Program-made: the position numbers and the translations under genes
The notes under the pieces: generated by a model
What the model was told of the DNA's origin: nothing
Seen by the model: only the letters and a program-made list of their open reading frames with translations
Databases searched by the model: none
Shown: positions 7,925 to 60,268 of the stretch, in pieces
Layout of the letters: each line of letters opens with the position of its first letter
Position numbering within the stretch: position 1 is the stretch's first letter
Assembly (NCBI RefSeq): GCF_019710475.1
Contig: NZ_JAJFAX010000013.1
Location: forward strand, 1 to 64,000
Length of the DNA stretch: 64,000 nt
Reading direction: 5' to 3'
DNA from: Glycomyces sp. TRM65418
Lineage (GTDB): Bacteria > Actinomycetota > Actinomycetes > Mycobacteriales > Micromonosporaceae

Positions 7925-7998
7925 GCGCGGTCCCGGGTCGGTCTCCTCGAATCGGCGGAAACTGGACGCGGCGGGGGCGGGGCGGCGATACTGGCGCC

Positions 7999-8385
7999 AT
8001 GAGATTTCTGGTGCGGCTGGTGCTGACGGCACTGGCGCTGTGGCTCGCGACGTGGATCGTCGGGGGCATTCAGCTGTACGGCGACTCGACGCCGGCGAAG
8101 TTCTTGTCGCTCTTGGTGGTGGCGTTGATCTTCACGGCGGTGAACACGTTCGTGAAGCCGCTCGTCATGGCGATCGGCTGCGCGTTGTACGTGCTCACGC
8201 TGGGCCTGTTCGGCCTGGTGGTGAACGCGTTGATGTTCTGGCTGACGGGGTGGGTCTCGGAGAAGCTCTCGCTGGGGTTCTCTGTGGACGGCTTCTGGGC
8301 GGCGTTCTGGGGCGCGATCATCGTGTGGCTGGCGATGTGGGTCATGGACCTGCTGTGGCCGCGGAAGACCCCGGCCGAGGACTAG
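7999..8385 (+). CDS. Phage holin family 4-like membrane protein
   Basis: Small (128 residues) integral membrane protein with four predicted helices. It shows the family pattern NTFVKPL near residue 50 and [11 protein letters not shown] near residue 75, seen in the widespread Phage_holin_4_2 family. Despite the name, most chromosomal members have no proven lytic role. No endolysin or other phage gene lies near, so it is best read as a conserved membrane protein of unknown function. Confidence 0.8.
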
Positions 8386-47371: not shown

Positions 47372-50110
47372 TCAGTGGAGCAGGTTGAGGTCTCGGGCGC
47401 GCCGGAGGGCTTCGGTTCGGCTGGAGACGCCGAGTTTGGTGTAGATGTGGCTCATGTGCTTCTTGACGGTGTCGAGGGTGACCGTCAGGTGTTCGGCTAT
47501 CTGCTGGTTGCGTCGGCCCTCGGCGACCAGGGTGAGGACTTCGAGTTCGCGGTTGGTCAAGGTGTCGCTTCGCCGGCCGGAGGTTCGGGTTTCGGGAAAG
47601 GCCCGGAGGAGTTCGGCGGCGTAGGCCCGCAGTCGCGGGGAGAGCGCGTCGGCGTGGCCGCGGGTCCGCACTCGCACCGCACCGCGCAGCAGGTCGGCCA
47701 TCGGCCGGCCTTCGTCGACGAAGACGCGGACGTGACCTTCGCACTCGGCGAGTTCCAGCGCGGCGGACAACGCGCGAAGCGCGCCGTCCTGGTCGCCGTC
47801 GGCCTTGGCCGCCATCGCCTCGAGGACGCGGACCTCGATCACGGTGACGACGCGGTGCCCGAATTCGGCGTCCTCGCCGAGCCGTGCCAGGAGGCGCCGG
47901 GCCGGTGCGGGTTCGCCCTCGGCGAGCAGCACGCGCGCGTACACCAGGTAGTCTCGTTCGTTCGCGAAGCAAACCGGGTCCTCACTGGACATTCCGCGCC
48001 GCCGCGCCCACGCCCGGGCGCGATCGGGCCGCCCCGCCGCCAGGTCCAGGCGGGCGCGCCCGGCCTCGACCGGCCAGACGTCCACGAGCCCGGCCGCCTG
48101 CCCGCAGGCCTCGTCCATGTGGCGCAAGGCGGCATCGACCTTCCCTTCGGCGAGTTCGAGCCAGGCGAGCAGATCGAGGCCGATCCACAGGTACCACGAT
48201 TCCACGAGCTGCCGGGCCAGGTCGACCACCCGCACCGTCCGCTCCTTCGCCTCGGCGAGTTCGCCTCGCTCGTACAGCACCCGCGCGAGCTTGTACTGGA
48301 GGATGCACTCGAAGGCGCGAGAAGCGGTCCTGTTCCCCGCCGCCGACTCCAGCGCCTCCGCAACGGTCCGGGCGGCGTCGCCGAGCCGCCCCAGGTAATG
48401 CTGTGTCACTCCGAGCAGACGCAGCATCAGCAGTCGTTCGTCCGGACTGATCTCGGTCTCGGCGAGCAGGCCGAGTATCCCGCTTTCGGCGAGGTCCATA
48501 CGGCCCTCGTGCCAGTGGGCCATCACGGTCATCAACCGCGCCCAGAACCGCGGCCCGTGCTCGTCGGATCCCAGGTGGCGCAGGGCCGTGGAGGCGTGAC
48601 GGCGCTCGGCCTCGCCATCGCGCCGGACGCCGGCCATCTCGCCCCGCAGCAACGCGATGGCGGCCATCGGGTCGGCCACCGTGCCGCCGTGCGTCGGGTA
48701 GCGCCGCCCCGGTGCGGCGGCCGAGGCCGCTTCGGCCGAGCCGAGCAGCCGTTCCACTTCGTCGAACCGGTACCGATGCCATTCGATGGCCGCCTTCGCC
48801 AGGCACAGGCGTATGTCGCCCCGCACCACCGCATCCGGGAGGCGGCTCAGCCACTCGTCCACGTCCGCGAAGTCGCCCCCTTTGACGATCGCCGCCTCCA
48901 AGTGCGGGTCGACGAGTCGCACCACCCATGCCCAGTCCTGGATCGCCGCCGCGTGCCACACGGCCTGGCCGTCCAGCCCGTGGCGTTCGTACCATTCGCC
49001 GGCACGGCGGTGCAGCTCCGGCACGATCGACGGCGACTCCTGCTCCAATCGCGCCCGGAGCAGGTCGCGGAACAGCTGATGCAGGCGGTACCACCGCCGC
49101 TCGCCGTCCATCGGCTGCAGGAACAGGTTCGCGCACTCCAGTTCCTTGAGCAGCTCGGTCCCGCCGGTCCCCCCTGTGACGGCGTCGCACAGCGGTCCGG
49201 TCAGCTCCTCCAGCAGCGAGCAGCGCACCAGGAACGCGGTCACCCGGTCGCTCTGGCGCGCGAGGACCTCCTCGCTGAAGTAGTCGAACACGTGCCGGTG
49301 CGTCCCGGTGAAATCGTGGACGGCGGTGTCCGGGTCGGGATGGTCGCGGAGGGCCAGCGCCGCCAGCTGCAACCCGGCCGCCCAGCCCTCGGTCCGCTCG
49401 GCGAGGGCGGCCGCGGTCGCCTTCGAGGCCTGAAAGCCCCACGCCTCCTGCAGCAGCGGCGCCGACTCCTCGGCGGAGAAACGCAGGTCGGCGGCGCCGA
49501 GTTCGGTCAGCCGGCCGCTCACGCGGAGCCGGGACAGGGGCAGCGGCGGCTCGGTGCGTCCGGCGAGCACCACGCACGTCCGGGACGGCAGCCTGGTGAG
49601 CAGCAGGGCCATGGTCTCGTGCACCGTCTCGGACTCGATCAGATGGAAGTCGTCGAGCACCAGCACCAGGCCCCCGGGCATGCCTTCCAGCGCGTTCACG
49701 AGTGCGGCCACGATCTCGCCTTTGGCGAGGGGACCGGGCGTCTGCAGCAGCGGCTGCAGCGAGTCGGGCGTCTCGGGTTCCGCGGCGCGCCCCACCGCCA
49801 CGGCCGCCAGTCGCCAGAAGCGGTCCTCGCGATCGTCCTCGGGGTCCAGTGAGATCCACGCGGTCCGTCCGCGCCGCCGCCGGGCCCAGTCGGCCAGCAT
49901 CGTCGTCTTGCCGGAACCGGCGGGCGCCGACACCAGGATCAGCGAGCCCTGGACGCCCGCATCGAGTCGTTCGACGAGGCGGGGCCGGCGCAGGCTCGCG
50001 CCGCCGGCGGGCGGCACGCCGAACTTCGTGGCGGCCACGCCGTGCGACGACAGGTTCAGCACCATCCGCTCCAGGTCACCTCGGGACACCGCGTGCAGAT
50101 CCGTGATCAT
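47372..50110 (-). CDS. LuxR-family STAND regulator (MalT/LAL type)
   Basis: 912 residues. Walker A SAPAGSGKT (61-69), Walker B VLVLDDFHLI, the MalT-like winged-helix region (LFLQPMDGERRWYRLHQLFRDLLRARLE), a long TPR-like array and a C-terminal LuxR HTH (LTNRELEVLTLVAEGRRNQQIAEHLTVTLDTVKKHMSHIYTKLG in effect). Such regulators bind ATP and an unknown inducer. ATG at 50110 or a GTG at 50125; neither has a strong ribosome site. Downstream neighbour of the first SARP gene on the same strand, 69 bases away. Confidence 0.9.
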   Translation of the reverse strand: MITDLHAVSRGDLERMVLNLSSHGVAATKFGVPPAGGASLRRPRLVERLDAGVQGSLILVSAPAGSGKTTMLADWARRRRGRTAWISLDPEDDREDRFWRLAAVAVGRAAEPETPDSLQPLLQTPGPLAKGEIVAALVNALEGMPGGLVLVLDDFHLIESETVHETMALLLTRLPSRTCVVLAGRTEPPLPLSRLRVSGRLTELGAADLRFSAEESAPLLQEAWGFQASKATAAALAERTEGWAAGLQLAALALRDHPDPDTAVHDFTGTHRHVFDYFSEEVLARQSDRVTAFLVRCSLLEELTGPLCDAVTGGTGGTELLKELECANLFLQPMDGERRWYRLHQLFRDLLRARLEQESPSIVPELHRRAGEWYERHGLDGQAVWHAAAIQDWAWVVRLVDPHLEAAIVKGGDFADVDEWLSRLPDAVVRGDIRLCLAKAAIEWHRYRFDEVERLLGSAEAASAAAPGRRYPTHGGTVADPMAAIALLRGEMAGVRRDGEAERRHASTALRHLGSDEHGPRFWARLMTVMAHWHEGRMDLAESGILGLLAETEISPDERLLMLRLLGVTQHYLGRLGDAARTVAEALESAAGNRTASRAFECILQYKLARVLYERGELAEAKERTVRVVDLARQLVESWYLWIGLDLLAWLELAEGKVDAALRHMDEACGQAAGLVDVWPVEAGRARLDLAAGRPDRARAWARRRGMSSEDPVCFANERDYLVYARVLLAEGEPAPARRLLARLGEDAEFGHRVVTVIEVRVLEAMAAKADGDQDGALRALSAALELAECEGHVRVFVDEGRPMADLLRGAVRVRTRGHADALSPRLRAYAAELLRAFPETRTSGRRSDTLTNRELEVLTLVAEGRRNQQIAEHLTVTLDTVKKHMSHIYTKLGVSSRTEALRRARDLNLLH

Positions 50111-50179
50111 GACGCGTAGGACCACAGGGTAGCCCGGGCGGGGCGCGGGAGGCGCGGCCTTAAAACGGGGCCGGTCGGG

Positions 50180-53100
50180 TCAGCGGCCGGAGACGCCCGG
50201 CGGGGCCGGTGCGCCTCCGAGCAGGATGCGGACGGCCGCGGCCTCGGGCATGGCCATCCGCTCGTACAGCGCGAGCGCCGTGCGCCAGTGCCGGTGAGCG
50301 GCCTCCGTCCGGCCCGATTCGCGGGCCACGAGTCCGAGCAGATGCGAGTTCAGCGCCTCGCCGACGGCGGAGCCGCAGGCCGCGTACATGTCGGCGGCGG
50401 TCTCGGCGAGTTCGGCGGCCTGCCGGAGCGAACCGCCGGTGAACCGGCCCCACGCCTGGAAGGTGGTGGCCAGCGACTGCTCGAGGGGGAGCACGGCGCT
50501 CGACGCGAGCGCGGCGGCCCGTGCCGCCTGCTGCGCGGCGGCCTCGGCCCGGCCGACCGAGACGTAGGTGGCGGCGAGGCCGATCCTGGCGCGGGCGTGG
50601 GGCCGGGCGAGATCGCCGGTGGACAGGTGCAGCGCCTGGTAGTAGTGGTCGATGGCCTCGCCGGGCGCGCCGGTGCGCAGCAGTGCCGTCCCCCAGGCGA
50701 CGTGGATCGAGGCGCTCTCGGTGCCGTTGTCGAGCGCCAGTTCGTGGCCGCGGCGCGCGGCGTCCAGGGCGGCGCGGCCGTCGCCGCCGATCGACAGCAC
50801 CAGGGACAGTTCACTGTAGACGTCGAGTTCGGGCAGGCGGTAGAAGGTGGCCGCCGCGAGCCGCCGCGCGGATTCCAGGTGGACGCGGGCCGCCTTGAGG
50901 TCGCCGCGCTGCTGGCACAGCGCTCCCAGTTCGAGCAGGCACACCATCTCCCCGTGCGTGGCGCCGTGGACGGCCGCCAGGTCCCGGGCCCGGGTGAGGT
51001 CCTCCTCCGCCGCTTCGAGGTGGCCGAGCCGCCGCCGACTGGTGGCGAGGCTGAACAGGGCGTTGGCGGCGGTCACCTCGTCGCCGCCGCTGCGGCTGCG
51101 CTCGAGCGCCCGGGTGAGCAGCGCGACGGCTTGGGCGGCGCGGCCGTGCTCGGTGTAGTCGTCGGCCAGGCCGATGAGGGCTCGTGCCTCTTCGACGGGG
51201 TCGCCCGATTCCCGGGCGAGCGCCACCGCCGCCTCGTCGAAGCGGGTCGCGGCCCCCAGGTCGCCGCGCAGGACGGCGGCCGTGCCGAGGTGCCGCGTCA
51301 TGCGGGCGCGAACCTGGAGGTCGCCCCGTCGGCGGGCCGCCCGCTCGCCGGAGTCGGCGATCCGTTCGAGGCGGCGCCAGTCGCCGCCGAAGTAGCAGTA
51401 GGCGCGCATCGCGTCGGCCAGCCACCAGGCGGCCGGGTGCCCGCGGGTTTCGGCGATCCGCGACAGCGCCACCAGCTCGTCGGCCTCGGCGTCGAACCAC
51501 GCGAGCGCGGCGTCGCGGCCGTCGAATCGGAGGGGCTCGGACACGCCCGGTTCGATCGGCGGGGCGGCGAGATTGCTCGCGGGCAGCTCCCCGGCCGCCC
51601 GATGGGCCGTCGCCGCGTACCAGTCCAGCATCCGCGCGGCGGCCGAGGCGAGGAACTCGGGGTCGTCCTCTTCGCGGGAACGGTCCCGGCCGTATTCGCG
51701 CAGCAGGTCGTGGAGCCGGTAGTGCCCGGGCCGGGGCCGCTGGAACAGCCCGGCCCGCTCCAGCGCCTCGACCGCTTCGCGGGCCCGCTCTTCGGTGACG
51801 TCCGCCAGCGCGGCGATCGCCGGGACGCTGATCGTCTCGGTTCCGGCCGCCGCCGTCAACCGGAACACGGTCCGGGCGCAGGCGGGCAGCGCCCGGTACG
51901 TCTCGTCGAACGCCGCCCGCACGCCGTCGACGGGGTCGTCGGGCGGCGCGTCGGCCGCGAGCGCGGCGCCCGCCATGCGAAGGGCGAGGGGGACGCCGCC
52001 GCAGCGGCGGGCCGCCGCCGCCACATCGGAGCGGTCGGCCGCGTCGGAGCCGGCGAGCGTCGCGAGCAGCGTCTCGGCCTCGTCGATGCCCAGCGCTCCC
52101 AGCGTGACCATGCGCGCGCCGTGGCTGACCGCGAGGCCGGTGAGATCGCCGCGACCGGTCACGACCACCGCGGATCCGGGTGCGCCGGGCAGCAGCGGCC
52201 GCACCTGGTCGACGTCGGCGGCGTCGTCGAGGACGAGCAGCACCCGGCGTCCGGCGAGGCGGTCGCGCAGCGCCGCCGAACGCGCGCAAGGCTCGGCGGG
52301 GATCTCGGCTCCGGGCATGCCCGAGGCCTGGAGCAGGTCGGCGGCCACCTCGTGCGCGCCCCGGGGATCGGTCGCCCCGCCGAGCGAGGCGAACCACTGG
52401 CCGTCGGGGAGGACCTCGCCCAGGCGGTGGCCGAGCTTGACGGCCAGCGCCGTCTTCCCGATCCCGGGCGGGCCGGAGACGGCGACGATCGGCACCCGCG
52501 CCTCGCCGCCGGACTCCAGCAGCGCGGCCAGCTCGTCCAGCAGGCCGGTGCGGCCGACGAAGTCGGGAAGGTCGAGCGGCAGCTGCCTGCGGACGCGCCA
52601 GCCGGCGAGCGGATCGGCGATCCGGCGGCTCGGCCCGCCGAGCCGCGGATCGCTCACGAGGATCGCCTCGTGCAGTTCGCGGAGCCGCTCGCCCGGGTCG
52701 AGGCCGTGCTCGTCGGCGAGCAGCCGGGACACGCGGCGATAGGCGCCGAGCGCTTCCGCCTGGCGTCCGTCTCGGTGCAACGCGAGCATCAGGTGCGCCC
52801 ACGGCTCCTCCCGGAGCGGGTGGGCCGCGACGAGCGCTCGCAGTTCGGGGACCAGCTCGCCGCCCAGCCCGGCCGCGAGGTCGGCCTCGATGCGGCGCCG
52901 ACGCACCGCGAGCACCTCCTCGGCGACCCCCTCGATGAGATCGTCCAGGGGTCCGCCGGCGAGTTCCGGGAGGACGGGTCCGCGGCACAGGTCGAGGGCC
53001 TGCCGCAGCAGCTCGACCGAGCACTCCGGCGTGGGGGCGCGATCGGCGCGCGCGACGAGGCTCCGGAACCCGTCGAGGTCGCGGGCGGTGGTCGCGAGCC

Positions 53101-53386
53101 GGTATCCACTGGGGACGGTCTCCAGGCCGCTGTCGTTCTCGCCGAGTTTGCGGCGCAGCCGCCAGACGCAGGTGTGCAGTGCGGCTCGGGGGCGCTCGGG
53201 CAGGCGGTCGCGCCAGAGCCGGTCGATGAGCTCGTCGGCGTCGACCACTTGGCCGGCGCGCAGCAGGAGCGTCGCCAGCAGCAGGCGTTCGCGTTCGGCG
53301 CCGATCGCCACCGGGGCCTTGTCGCGGTGCACGAGCAGCGGCCCGAGGATGGCGAACGAGGGGGCGGTTCCGGTCGTTGGGGGCAT
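50180..53386 (-). CDS. AfsR/SARP-family regulator (BTAD-NB-ARC-TPR)
   Basis: 1068 residues. OmpR-like winged helix (about 10-100), BTAD domain (about 100-245, LMLALHRDGRQAEALGAYRR), NB-ARC ATPase (Walker A SGPPGIGKT near 315, VLLVLDDAADVDQV) and a long TPR region. SARPs activate by binding 7-mer direct repeats with 11-base phasing near -35. Exactly such repeats lie in the 118-base gap to the divergent DGTRVT-repeat gene. That makes this gene the prime candidate activator of it. Confidence 0.92.
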   Translation of the reverse strand: MPPTTGTAPSFAILGPLLVHRDKAPVAIGAERERLLLATLLLRAGQVVDADELIDRLWRDRLPERPRAALHTCVWRLRRKLGENDSGLETVPSGYRLATTARDLDGFRSLVARADRAPTPECSVELLRQALDLCRGPVLPELAGGPLDDLIEGVAEEVLAVRRRRIEADLAAGLGGELVPELRALVAAHPLREEPWAHLMLALHRDGRQAEALGAYRRVSRLLADEHGLDPGERLRELHEAILVSDPRLGGPSRRIADPLAGWRVRRQLPLDLPDFVGRTGLLDELAALLESGGEARVPIVAVSGPPGIGKTALAVKLGHRLGEVLPDGQWFASLGGATDPRGAHEVAADLLQASGMPGAEIPAEPCARSAALRDRLAGRRVLLVLDDAADVDQVRPLLPGAPGSAVVVTGRGDLTGLAVSHGARMVTLGALGIDEAETLLATLAGSDAADRSDVAAAARRCGGVPLALRMAGAALAADAPPDDPVDGVRAAFDETYRALPACARTVFRLTAAAGTETISVPAIAALADVTEERAREAVEALERAGLFQRPRPGHYRLHDLLREYGRDRSREEDDPEFLASAAARMLDWYAATAHRAAGELPASNLAAPPIEPGVSEPLRFDGRDAALAWFDAEADELVALSRIAETRGHPAAWWLADAMRAYCYFGGDWRRLERIADSGERAARRRGDLQVRARMTRHLGTAAVLRGDLGAATRFDEAAVALARESGDPVEEARALIGLADDYTEHGRAAQAVALLTRALERSRSGGDEVTAANALFSLATSRRRLGHLEAAEEDLTRARDLAAVHGATHGEMVCLLELGALCQQRGDLKAARVHLESARRLAAATFYRLPELDVYSELSLVLSIGGDGRAALDAARRGHELALDNGTESASIHVAWGTALLRTGAPGEAIDHYYQALHLSTGDLARPHARARIGLAATYVSVGRAEAAAQQAARAAALASSAVLPLEQSLATTFQAWGRFTGGSLRQAAELAETAADMYAACGSAVGEALNSHLLGLVARESGRTEAAHRHWRTALALYERMAMPEAAAVRILLGGAPAPPGVSGR

Positions 53387-53444
53387 GGTCCGATATTGGA
53401 CCCGCTGCGCCAGTTCGGCGTCACCCCTTGGTGGAACATCCCGT

Positions 53445-53498
53445 GTAAGCGAGCGGTGAGCCGAAGGCGAGCGGCGTGTAAGCGGCCGTGAATACGGT
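53445..53498 (+). promoter_or_regulatory. SARP-type operator and leaderless promoter
   Basis: The hexamers GTAAGC (53445), GTGAGC (53456), GCGAGC (53467) and GTAAGC (53478) recur at exact 11-base steps. Nine bases later comes TACGGT (53493-53498), a -10 box that puts the transcript start on the ATG at 53505. Direct repeats ending about 8 bases before -10 are the known SARP/AfsR layout. Confidence 0.65.
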
Positions 53499-53504
53499 GG
53501 CCGC

Positions 53505-53810
53505 ATGACAGTGAAGACGACCAGTTCGCCGATTCGGCGCACCTCCGCAGCATTCATCCGCATCATGGCCGCCGGTTCGCTGGCGGCGGGAATCGCCGTG
53601 GCCGCCTTCGCGGCCCCGGCCCAGGCCGGCGACGACTCGGACGGGACCCGCGTGACCGTGACCGATCCCGACGGGACTCGGGTGACGGGCGAGAACCCGG
53701 ACGGCACCCGCGTCACGGGCGACGACACCGACGGGACCCGCGTGACCGGTGACCGCGACCTGCAGACCGACCCGGACGGCACCCGCGTCACCAGCAGGGA
53801 CTGGAGCTGA
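53505..53810 (+). CDS. Secreted DGTRVT tandem-repeat peptide
   Basis: 101 residues. Sec signal peptide ending in APAQA (about 1-41), then almost nothing but repeats: DGTRVT five times, mostly with a 10-residue period (spacers VTDP, GENP, GDDT, GDRDLQTDP), and a final SRDWS. No Cys, no membrane anchor. I know no family. It could be a small extracellular matrix or coat protein, a signalling peptide precursor or a repeat RiPP precursor. Codon use in the repeats varies, so they are not a recent DNA duplication. Divergent from the SARP gene. Confidence 0.65.
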   Translation: MTVKTTSSPIRRTSAAFIRIMAAGSLAAGIAVAAFAAPAQAGDDSDGTRVTVTDPDGTRVTGENPDGTRVTGDDTDGTRVTGDRDLQTDPDGTRVTSRDWS

Positions 53811-53921
53811 CGAGTCGGGCCGGCAGGGCCGGCCAGGTCGTTGGGATGAACACGTCGTCCGCTGCGGGCTCACCCGCCGCTAGACGATGACGTCGTCGTG
53901 AGCGATGCGGCGTGTTCAGAG

Positions 53922-53952
53922 GGCGTCCGGCGTACCCCCGCCGGACGCCTTT
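53922..53952 (+). terminator. Terminator of the DGTRVT gene
   Basis: An 11-bp perfect stem GGCGTCCGGCG/CGCCGGACGCC followed by TTT, about 110 bases after the stop. Confidence 0.65.
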
Positions 53953-53985
53953 GCCATGTCCTCCGAGGATCGGACTTCGCGGCGG

Positions 53986-55914
53986 TCAATGATCGGCGGC
54001 GCCTTGAGCCTCCCGCCTCCACAGACCGGCCGCGCGGACCAGCGTCGGCTGCGCATCCGACCGGGCGTCCGGACCGGTCCCGTTGTGCCGGCCCGGCCGC
54101 CGAGCCATGGACGATGAGCGCTCGCGCTCGTCCGTCTCCGCGGCGAGCTCGGCGGCGTACACGCGCAGCAGGCCGTGCAGCTCGTACCGGCCCGGCCGGG
54201 AACGGCGCAGCAGGCTGTGGTCGACGAGCGTCTCCAAGAGTCGGAGGGCGACCGGCGGTGACGTCCTGCCGAGAACGGCCGCGGCCTCCACGTCGACTCC
54301 GGGTCCGGGCGCGGTGCCGAGCGCCCGGAACATCGCGGCCGCCTGATCGGGCAGCGCCCGGTACGACCATGAGAAGACGCTCCGGACGTCATCGGCGCCG
54401 CCGACCCCCTCCCCGAGCGCGTCGAGGCGCGCGGTCTCGTCGCGGGCCTGTTCGACCAGCGCCGGCAGGGGGATGCCGGTGTTGCGGACCCGCTCGGCGG
54501 CCAGTGCGACGGCCAGCGGCAGGTGGCCGCACAGGTCGGCGAGTTCGGCGATCGTGCCGGAGCGTCCCGCGACCGCCTCGGCGCCGAGGGTCCGCCGCAG
54601 GAGCGCGGCCGATTCGGTCGGCGCGAAGGGGCCGAGTTCCATCAGGCACGCGCCTTCGCGCAGCCGCAGGCTGCGGAGCCGGTTGCGGCTGGTGACCAGG
54701 ACCAGGCCGTCGGCGCCGGGCAGGAGCGACCGCACCTGGTCGGCGTCGCGGGCGTCGTCGAGCACCAGGAGAACGCGCCGACCGGCCAACGCCGTGCGAA
54801 GCGCCGCCGACCGCCCCTCGGTGTCGGACGGGATCTGCTGCGGCGGCGTACCGAGTGACAGCAGCAGCGCCATGAGCGCGGCGTCCGTCGCCAACGGCTC
54901 GCTCGGGCGGTGGCCCCGCAGGTGCAGATAGAGCTGGCCGTCGGGGAACCGCTCGGCGACGCGGTGCGCCCAGTGGACGGCCAGTGAGGTCTTGCCGACG
55001 CCGGCGGGGCCGCTGACGACCGCGATGGGGACGGGCGGGCGGCCTGCTTCGCCACCGGTCTCGAGGAGCCGGTCGAGGTCCGCCAGCCGTTCGGCGCGGC
55101 CGGTGAACCGGGCGATGTCGGTGGGCAGTTGTCGTGGAGCCGGGACGCTGACCAGGACGTCGGTGCGGACCGGGACGGGCTCGGGCCCCTCCGCGGGACG
55201 CAGGACCGCTCGGTGGACCCGTTGCAGTTCGGCGCCGGGGTCCACGCCGAGCCGGTCGGCGAGCAGCGTCCGGATGCGCTGGTACGCGCCGAGGGCTTCG
55301 GCTTGGCGCCCGGATCGGTGCAACGCGAGCATCAGTCGCGACCACAGGAACTCGCGGAGCGGATGCCGGGTCGTGAGGTCGTGCAGTTCGGCGACGAGTT
55401 CGGCGTGGCCGCCCGCCTCCAGGATCAGGTCGACGCGCCGCTCGATCACGCGCAGGCGCTCCTCCATCAGCGACGGCACGTGCGCGAGCACCAGCGACTC
55501 GGCTTCGATGTCGGCCAAGGGCTCGCCGCGCCAGAGGTCGAGCGCCCGGTCGAGCAATGCCAGTTCGGCGGCCCCGTCGACGCGGTTCGACTCCGCGACC
55601 AGGGCGCGGAACCGGTGGACGTCGACGGCCTCGGGCGGCAGGGCCAAGGTGTACTCACCGGCCGAGGCGCGGACCGTCTCGGTGCCGATCACCTGGCGCA
55701 GGCGGTTGACGGCGGTGTGCAGGCGGTGCCGCGCGGACGAGAAGTCCTCGCCCCAGACGTGCGTGGCGAGCGTGGTGCTGCGGACCGGCTTCCCGACCGC
55801 GAGGGCGAGGGCGGCGAGGACCGCGCGTCGGCGCTGCCCCTCGACGGCCCTCGGCATGCCGTCGACGGTGACCTGGAAGGGACCCAGGAGTCCGATTCGG
55901 ATCGTCGCTGTCAT
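53986..55914 (-). CDS. SARP-family regulator, short form without TPR domain
   Basis: 642 residues. Winged helix (about 5-95), BTAD (about 95-240), NB-ARC (Walker A SGPAGVGKT near 320, VLLVLDDARDADQV) and a winged helix ending in YELHGLLRVYAAELAAETDERE. The usual TPR array is missing. After residue about 600 the tail becomes low-complexity (SSSMARRPGRHNGTG and on), so the gene looks truncated relative to AfsR. ATG at 55914 has GAAGGGAG upstream. Its likely target region is the repeat array at 56120-56148. Confidence 0.88.
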   Translation of the reverse strand: MTATIRIGLLGPFQVTVDGMPRAVEGQRRRAVLAALALAVGKPVRSTTLATHVWGEDFSSARHRLHTAVNRLRQVIGTETVRASAGEYTLALPPEAVDVHRFRALVAESNRVDGAAELALLDRALDLWRGEPLADIEAESLVLAHVPSLMEERLRVIERRVDLILEAGGHAELVAELHDLTTRHPLREFLWSRLMLALHRSGRQAEALGAYQRIRTLLADRLGVDPGAELQRVHRAVLRPAEGPEPVPVRTDVLVSVPAPRQLPTDIARFTGRAERLADLDRLLETGGEAGRPPVPIAVVSGPAGVGKTSLAVHWAHRVAERFPDGQLYLHLRGHRPSEPLATDAALMALLLSLGTPPQQIPSDTEGRSAALRTALAGRRVLLVLDDARDADQVRSLLPGADGLVLVTSRNRLRSLRLREGACLMELGPFAPTESAALLRRTLGAEAVAGRSGTIAELADLCGHLPLAVALAAERVRNTGIPLPALVEQARDETARLDALGEGVGGADDVRSVFSWSYRALPDQAAAMFRALGTAPGPGVDVEAAAVLGRTSPPVALRLLETLVDHSLLRRSRPGRYELHGLLRVYAAELAAETDERERSSSMARRPGRHNGTGPDARSDAQPTLVRAAGLWRREAQGAADH

Positions 55915-60019: not shown

Positions 60020-60268
60020 ATGATCGCGAAGACATTCCTCATCCGCGCGGGCGTCGCGGCCACGGCCGGCGCCTTGGCCACGCTGGGCTTCACCGCGGCC
60101 GCCTCGGCCTCCGAGACCGACGGCTGGTCCTGGCTGCAGGCCGACGCCTCGTCCGAGACCGACGGCTGGTCCTGGCTGCAGGCCGACGCCTCGTCCGAGA
60201 CCGACGGCTGGTCCTGGCTGCAGGCCGACGAAACCGCGACCGACCCCGACGGCTGGTCCTGGTACTAG
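60020..60268 (+). CDS. Secreted SETDGWSWLQADA tandem-repeat peptide
   Basis: 82 residues. Sec signal ending in ASA (about 1-30), then three 14-residue units (SSETDGWSWLQADA) and a final DPDGWSWY at the C-terminus. The units are 42-base DNA repeats at 60110, 60152 and 60194. The first two copies are base-identical over the unit and the third over most of it, which implies recent expansion. Each core has the Trp-Ser-Trp motif. It shares size, signal type, DG-centred repeats and C-terminal aromatic ending with the DGTRVT protein at 53505. GGAG lies before the ATG. No family known to me. Confidence 0.65.
   Translation: MIAKTFLIRAGVAATAGALATLGFTAAASASETDGWSWLQADASSETDGWSWLQADASSETDGWSWLQADETATDPDGWSWY

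Follow-up and report, generated by a model that had tools for sequence, protein, structure and literature searches.

Which regulator acts on a small gene that lies between two large SARP genes, and what does its repetitive product do? Both questions are raised by the window, the whole 64,000-nucleotide stretch of Glycomyces DNA analysed here, in which an apparently leaderless gene for a 101-residue repeat protein (53505..53810, + strand) is divergent from one AfsR-like regulator, SARP1, and convergent with an AfsR-type regulator, SARP2. The protein begins with a putative signal peptide (residues 1-41) ending in APAQA, an A-x-A site recognized by eye, continues as an acidic array of five DGTRVT units and closes with the C-terminus SRDWS. 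The signal peptide and five units noticed in a preliminary description of this DNA are both visible in the 101-residue reading frame, the signal peptide by eye and by a simple hydrophobicity script, which are the means used for all such calls here. The protein is probably exported, and its array is probably disordered.

A putative SARP-type promoter for the peptide gene

The sequence pattern and promoter comparison point to a putative SARP-type operator ahead of the peptide gene. Four GYRAGC hexamers (53445..53483, + strand) follow one another in 11-bp steps: GTAAGC at 53445, GTGAGC at 53456, GCGAGC at 53467 and GTAAGC at 53478. Nine bases beyond the last hexamer is the -10 element TACGGT (53493..53498, + strand), and hexamers and TACGGT alike fall inside the intergenic region (53387-53504). 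The ATG at 53505 comes six bases after the -10 element, so the predicted transcript start is the A of the ATG itself, and we infer a leaderless transcript starting at 53505. These positions agree with those first reported for the hexamers, the -10 element and the start codon. No -35 element is evident by eye. According to one account of SARP promoters, the direct repeats are 11 bp apart and the last lies about 8 bp from the -10 element (PMC10936776); the window promoter fits this rule, its gap being 9 bp by the hexamer boundary used here.

With up to three mismatches allowed, the four-copy hexamer pattern occurs once in the 64 kb, with 0 mismatches, against an expectation of 0.02, and 2 of 100 shuffles contain it. 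Identity at a lag of 11 bases is 0.58 within the window operator, compared with 0.31 in letter shuffles (p 0.0007, or p 0.003 if the test may choose the best stretch within 100 bp).

The preliminary description had placed a SARP-type promoter before the small repeat-protein gene, and this layout is kept in all eight peptide promoters of SARP2-bearing genomes. Each has phased TGAGC-like repeats, the last 9 bp from TA[CG]G[GT]T, and an ATG 6-7 bp after that element (G019 included). Across seven promoters, identity at lag 11 is 0.60, letter shuffles giving 0.33 (z 9.5); at lag 22 it is 0.62 (z 8.9). Lags 10 and 12 fall short of chance. The lag-11 signal is absent at the peptide promoters of G013 (p 0.42) and G007 (p 0.95), both of them genomes without SARP2.

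The conserved partner of the peptide gene

The peptide had been proposed as the dedicated output of the divergent regulator SARP1 (50180..53386, - strand), a 1068-residue protein with Pfam matches to Trans_reg_C, BTAD, NB-ARC and TPR. In its favour, SARP1 has the closest start codon, shares the intergenic region with the peptide gene and keeps its TPR part, while the window SARP2 has lost its own. However, none of the 21 other Glycomyces genomes has a match to SARP1 at E≤1e-150, although the promoter layout persists among them; six other loci combine the layout and SARP2 without a SARP1 ortholog. It had also been considered that the small reading frame might lack conservation next to SARP genes; in all seven assessable loci it lies beside SARP2, tail-to-tail with a gap of 88-187 bp. 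A dedicated role for SARP1 is thus improbable, and on sequence comparison the conserved partner of the peptide is SARP2, not SARP1.

Orthologs of SARP2 are found in 7 of the 22 Glycomyces genomes as eight copies, one of them cut by a contig end. The ortholog set was defined by seven copies that are 73-79% identical to the query, the SARP2 of contig C33, all other matches being at most 45% identical. Contig C33 belongs to the same genome as the window and carries a paralog of the peptide, the second copy within that genome. Every SARP2-bearing genome has the peptide (7/7), as do 2 of the 15 genomes without SARP2; the Fisher p of 2.1e-4 for this association overstates the case because related genomes are not independent. 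The six full-length orthologs (917-979 aa) all comprise winged helix, BTAD, NB-ARC and TPR parts. The window copy (53986..55914, - strand; 642 aa) is without its TPR part owing to an internal deletion, in which some 980 bases of the full-length gene are replaced by 94, and past the gap its sequence matches the end of the full-length gene together with bases behind the stop codon of that gene (72% over 108). Given this loss, the activator in the window strain could be the truncated SARP2, the full-length C33 paralog or SARP1. At the C33 locus, one more SARP, an unrelated one, is encoded about 2.4 kb upstream of the peptide.

Both window regulators fall below the cut-off of 1430 bits for the AfsR equivalog family NF053617 (SARP1 401, SARP2 399), and both show an NCBIfam resemblance, far below cut-off, to FxSxx-COOH/HaaA-type NB-ARC-TPR proteins. 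They are two of three large STAND-type regulators that stand in a row in the window (47372-55914, - strand), the other being MalT/LuxR-like.

The operator pattern at other loci

We scanned genomes with the pattern TGAGCN6TGAGCN6TGAGCN9TASGKT, using the same pattern backwards as control. At up to three mismatches, the 22 Glycomyces genomes contain 11 matches compared with 3 for the control: eight at seven of the eight peptide promoters, two on contig C4 of the window genome and one near the start of a SARP gene in G015. The peptide promoter of G009, whose repeats are degenerate, was missed at three mismatches. At up to two mismatches, 354 genomes of the family give 18 matches versus 4 in the control. 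Half of these are in Glycomyces (seven peptide promoters and the two C4 sites), and five of the other nine adjoin SARP genes. As a sequence signature, then, the operator pattern occurs seldom and is linked to SARP genes. TGAGC-phased operators between two SARP-like reading frames (L280, L281, L282) suggest SARP autoregulation in a different genus of the family.

The C4 sites lie in a RiPP cluster with Os1348-type precursors (C4 30000-49500). Its two intact precursors are similar, end in SAPSCDAF and SAPSCDIW, and score 45 and 48 bits against a cut-off of 40. One operator site precedes an Os1348-type precursor gene and the other, itself intact, a decayed third precursor; the second intact precursor gene has similar phased repeats that the scan missed. 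Genes for B12-binding and HydE/BioB-like radical SAM proteins, oxygenases and an M24 peptidase follow downstream. No BTAD match was found on C4, so control of this cluster would be in trans.

A family of repeat peptides with changing units

Nine of the 22 Glycomyces genomes contain a match to the C33 peptide at E≤0.001. Eight family proteins have signal peptides that are much alike, and what follows is a changing mosaic. The window, G009 and G013 have DGTRVT-type peptides; DNRDM/DNRDW and DKIW units make up those of the C33 copy and G006, and SVRITG, FTPPY and DNRDF/DNRDY units those of G014, G002 and G008. In G007, SVRIT/FTPPY/DNRDF units stand behind a different signal peptide, next to an NB-ARC-TPR gene. 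Peptides of the DGTRVT type end in RDWS or WDW, those of the other types in RD and then one of W, M, F and Y. A twin arginine is present in 8/8 proteins, along with a hydrophobic segment and an A-x-A site by script and by eye. The relatives of the window protein span 73-180 aa; net charge is -7 to -19 in seven proteins, and the number of units varies.

Codon comparison of the units in three DGTRVT arrays gives a pS of 0.41 (76/186) and zero amino-acid replacements (0/426), part of this zero being built in because the units were picked by motif; in the window array, by eye, no degenerate unit was omitted from the comparison. The spacers of the same arrays have a pS of 0.54 and a pN of 0.31.

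The window peptide has no Pfam match and three NCBIfam matches only, at E 0.036 or worse and below cut-off; among eight relatives, a single one gave a family match, at E 0.0045. Against solved structures the best E was 0.04, which we take as chance. Searched with the window protein, 31 of 81 relatives matched at E≤0.01, mostly weakly. A profile search across the family gave matches at E≤0.001 in 45 of 300 genomes, and those below 1e-6 were all Glycomyces peptide genes except G430:C44. Of 80 AfsR-like loci among the matches listed, 78 of them from outside Glycomyces, only the Glycomyces locus L099 has such a peptide gene. L099 is named Glycomyces amatae, and the G009 contig (L052) agrees with it base for base over 10,563 bases, which assigns the genus compared here to Glycomyces. 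Seven further ORFs flagged at AfsR-like loci were judged by eye to be low-complexity or alternative-frame. In the 1.5-kb flanks of 22 other Glycomyces SARP loci, we found no signal-peptide ORF containing a tetrapeptide three or more times, and two ORFs flagged there by a weaker rule were dismissed.

Two other kinds of secreted-type protein were seen in these genomes. Small signal-peptide proteins with DGWSW units form a separate second family, with clear matches in 3 of the 22 Glycomyces genomes (window 60020..60268, + strand; L250 7499-7846, - strand; L251 ~7980-8254, + strand). By eye, CTTGTC-like direct repeats and a ATTGCGGC block lie upstream of the gene in the window and in G009, and are not obviously present upstream in G021. 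An NB-ARC-TPR gene (L256-L264) occurs in 9 of the 22 genomes; a larger signal-peptide protein (AHYVY...) is divergent from it in at least four, that of L263 having a TPDNSIQGD repeat tail. G007 has the repeat peptide in the position of the AHYVY... protein.

A proposed mechanism and its known relatives

The explanation that best accounts for the locus as a whole, and one that we regard as probable, is that a SARP of the SARP2 lineage drives a leaderless gene for an exported multi-copy array. An AfsR-type SARP of this lineage, or a relative, would bind the phased repeats with its protomers side by side, the last next to the -10 element, and the bound SARP would recruit RNA polymerase to the peptide gene. 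The product would be exported via its signal peptide as an acidic, probably disordered array, built of DGTRVT here and of DNRDx, SVRITG or FTPPY in relatives. Comparison between genomes establishes the promoter layout, its conservation, the SARP link and the neighbourhood. SARP binding and activation at the peptide promoter are predictions from DNA and protein sequence, and the role of the array is the weakest step of the explanation.

The nearest known wiring is that of AfsR and AfsS in Streptomyces, a known pair of SARP and small repeat protein (PMC2267785, PMC10936776, PMC10972967), in which AfsR likewise uses an afsS promoter with a poor -35 element (PMC10936776). Both systems have an AfsR-type SARP with NB-ARC and TPR parts, direct repeats of 11-bp spacing adjoining the -10 element, and a neighbouring gene for a small protein whose short repeats vary from genome to genome. 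The Glycomyces system differs in that its gene is convergent, apparently leaderless and preceded by four repeats rather than two, and in that its product has a signal peptide. The preliminary description had found such a two-part system unfamiliar; the pairing itself has this precedent, but the product looks exported and its homology to AfsS is not established. Among the matches listed from the open-licence literature, no title or abstract describes a pair of a SARP and an exported repeat peptide. The AfsS repeats themselves vary among Streptomyces-type genomes (DAHAT, DNTHVT, DNPMPAPP, DNAMP, DNHAS, DNHVT and DFHAT in L082-L090), and AfsR is over the family cut-off at all of these loci.

The role of the array

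For the array itself we tentatively place a role as an extracellular signal, or as a precursor cut into short peptides, ahead of surface or matrix and AfsS-like roles. We counted for it that the units are small, present in several copies and accompanied by a signal peptide, that they are conserved at the level of copies, and that TPR regulators of two kinds lie nearby; tandem propeptides have been published in Bacillota (PMC11343458). The locus resembles the RRNPP systems of that phylum (Rap-Phr, tandem propeptides) in having a small multi-unit propeptide with a signal peptide beside a TPR regulator, but its regulator also has SARP and NB-ARC parts and its units are acidic. One set of criteria for RRNPP pairs comprises a propeptide of 10-100 aa with a Sec signal and an adjacent receptor of 250-500 aa with a TPR domain (PMC10075063). 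The window protein lies just outside the first range, and only that of G013 (73 aa) among its relatives lies within it; both the six full-length SARP2 proteins and the shorter window copy exceed the second. A TPR regulator adjoins the peptide at six loci, the window SARP2 being without TPR. We counted this absence against a signal, together with the lengths of propeptide and regulator, the acidity of the units, the occurrence of the peptide without SARP2 or operator in G013 and G007, and the fact that the G007-type NB-ARC-TPR gene has a small repeat peptide adjoining it in G007 only, among nine genomes. The TPR parts of the six full-length SARP2 proteins are 70-82% identical, and the DNA-binding parts of all seven 74-81%. 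TPR identity is 71% within the DNRDM-type pair and 77% between G000b and the SVRITG-type G002; it does not track the repeat type, which argues against a role as TPR ligand. A complete autoinducer circuit, in which the SARP drives an exported propeptide and the units cut from it re-enter the cell to be bound by the SARP TPR domain, is a speculative and rather unlikely extension. If true, the missing inducer of AfsR-type regulators would be found, and in the window strain the circuit would also drive the Os1348-type RiPP cluster with the same operator.

A surface, matrix or ion-binding polymer outside the cell, which we consider doubtful, would suit the acidity and variable copy number of the arrays. 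At the one locus inspected, no importer was recognized next to the pair, and the sole peptidase seen is of S10 type and some kilobases away. In our judgement, though, rapid turnover of unit types beside a constant regulator and tight pairing with a SARP would not be typical of a structural protein. An AfsS-like identity, in which the protein would be the Glycomyces version of that small repeat regulator, acting one level beneath the SARP and having gained a signal peptide, is unlikely. The 11-bp repeats and the SARP link are common to both genes; in 9 of the 10 AfsR loci that exceed the NF053617 cut-off, a small repeat ORF directly follows afsR in the same orientation; and PDGTRVTGD and TPDNRDM look like the AfsS-side repeats PDNTHVTDE, LDNHVTD and DNAMP. 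In a unit-shuffle test, the best single AfsS reaches p 0.017 against DGTRVT units, but mean scores are not significant (DGTRVT p 0.12, DNRDM 0.065, SVRITG types 0.26 and 0.62), and afsS is co-directional and by eye encodes no signal peptide, whereas the Glycomyces gene is convergent and its product has one.

A RiPP or antimicrobial precursor, foreseen in the preliminary description as a RiPP-like module, is the least probable of these roles. Multi-copy units under SARP control would suit such a precursor, and the same operator fronts Os1348-type precursors elsewhere in this genome. The peptide, however, has a signal peptide rather than a RiPP leader, and no recognizable maturase is found among the shared neighbours (at one locus, in G008, 7 of 10 are Pfam-named and three have no Pfam match). 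In FxSxx-COOH and HaaA RiPP systems, too, a gene for a small peptide lies close to one for an NB-ARC-TPR protein; the Glycomyces pair differs from them in its signal peptide and in that no radical SAM gene was recognized near it.

Implications

For AfsR, one account leaves open whether its TPR sensor is bound by an inducer (PMC10936776), and for AfsS another describes the mode of action as unknown (PMC10972967). In the Glycomyces soil bacteria that encode it, the repeat peptide could serve as a message or be a product of the cell surface. A SARP with such a peptide, multi-copy and probably exported, as the most conserved of its visible targets offers a simple test system for both questions. 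In addition, the operator signature, three TGAGC elements 11 bp apart and 9 bp from the -10 element, finds SARP-linked genes across the family with few control matches, and these genes include a RiPP cluster in the genome of the window.
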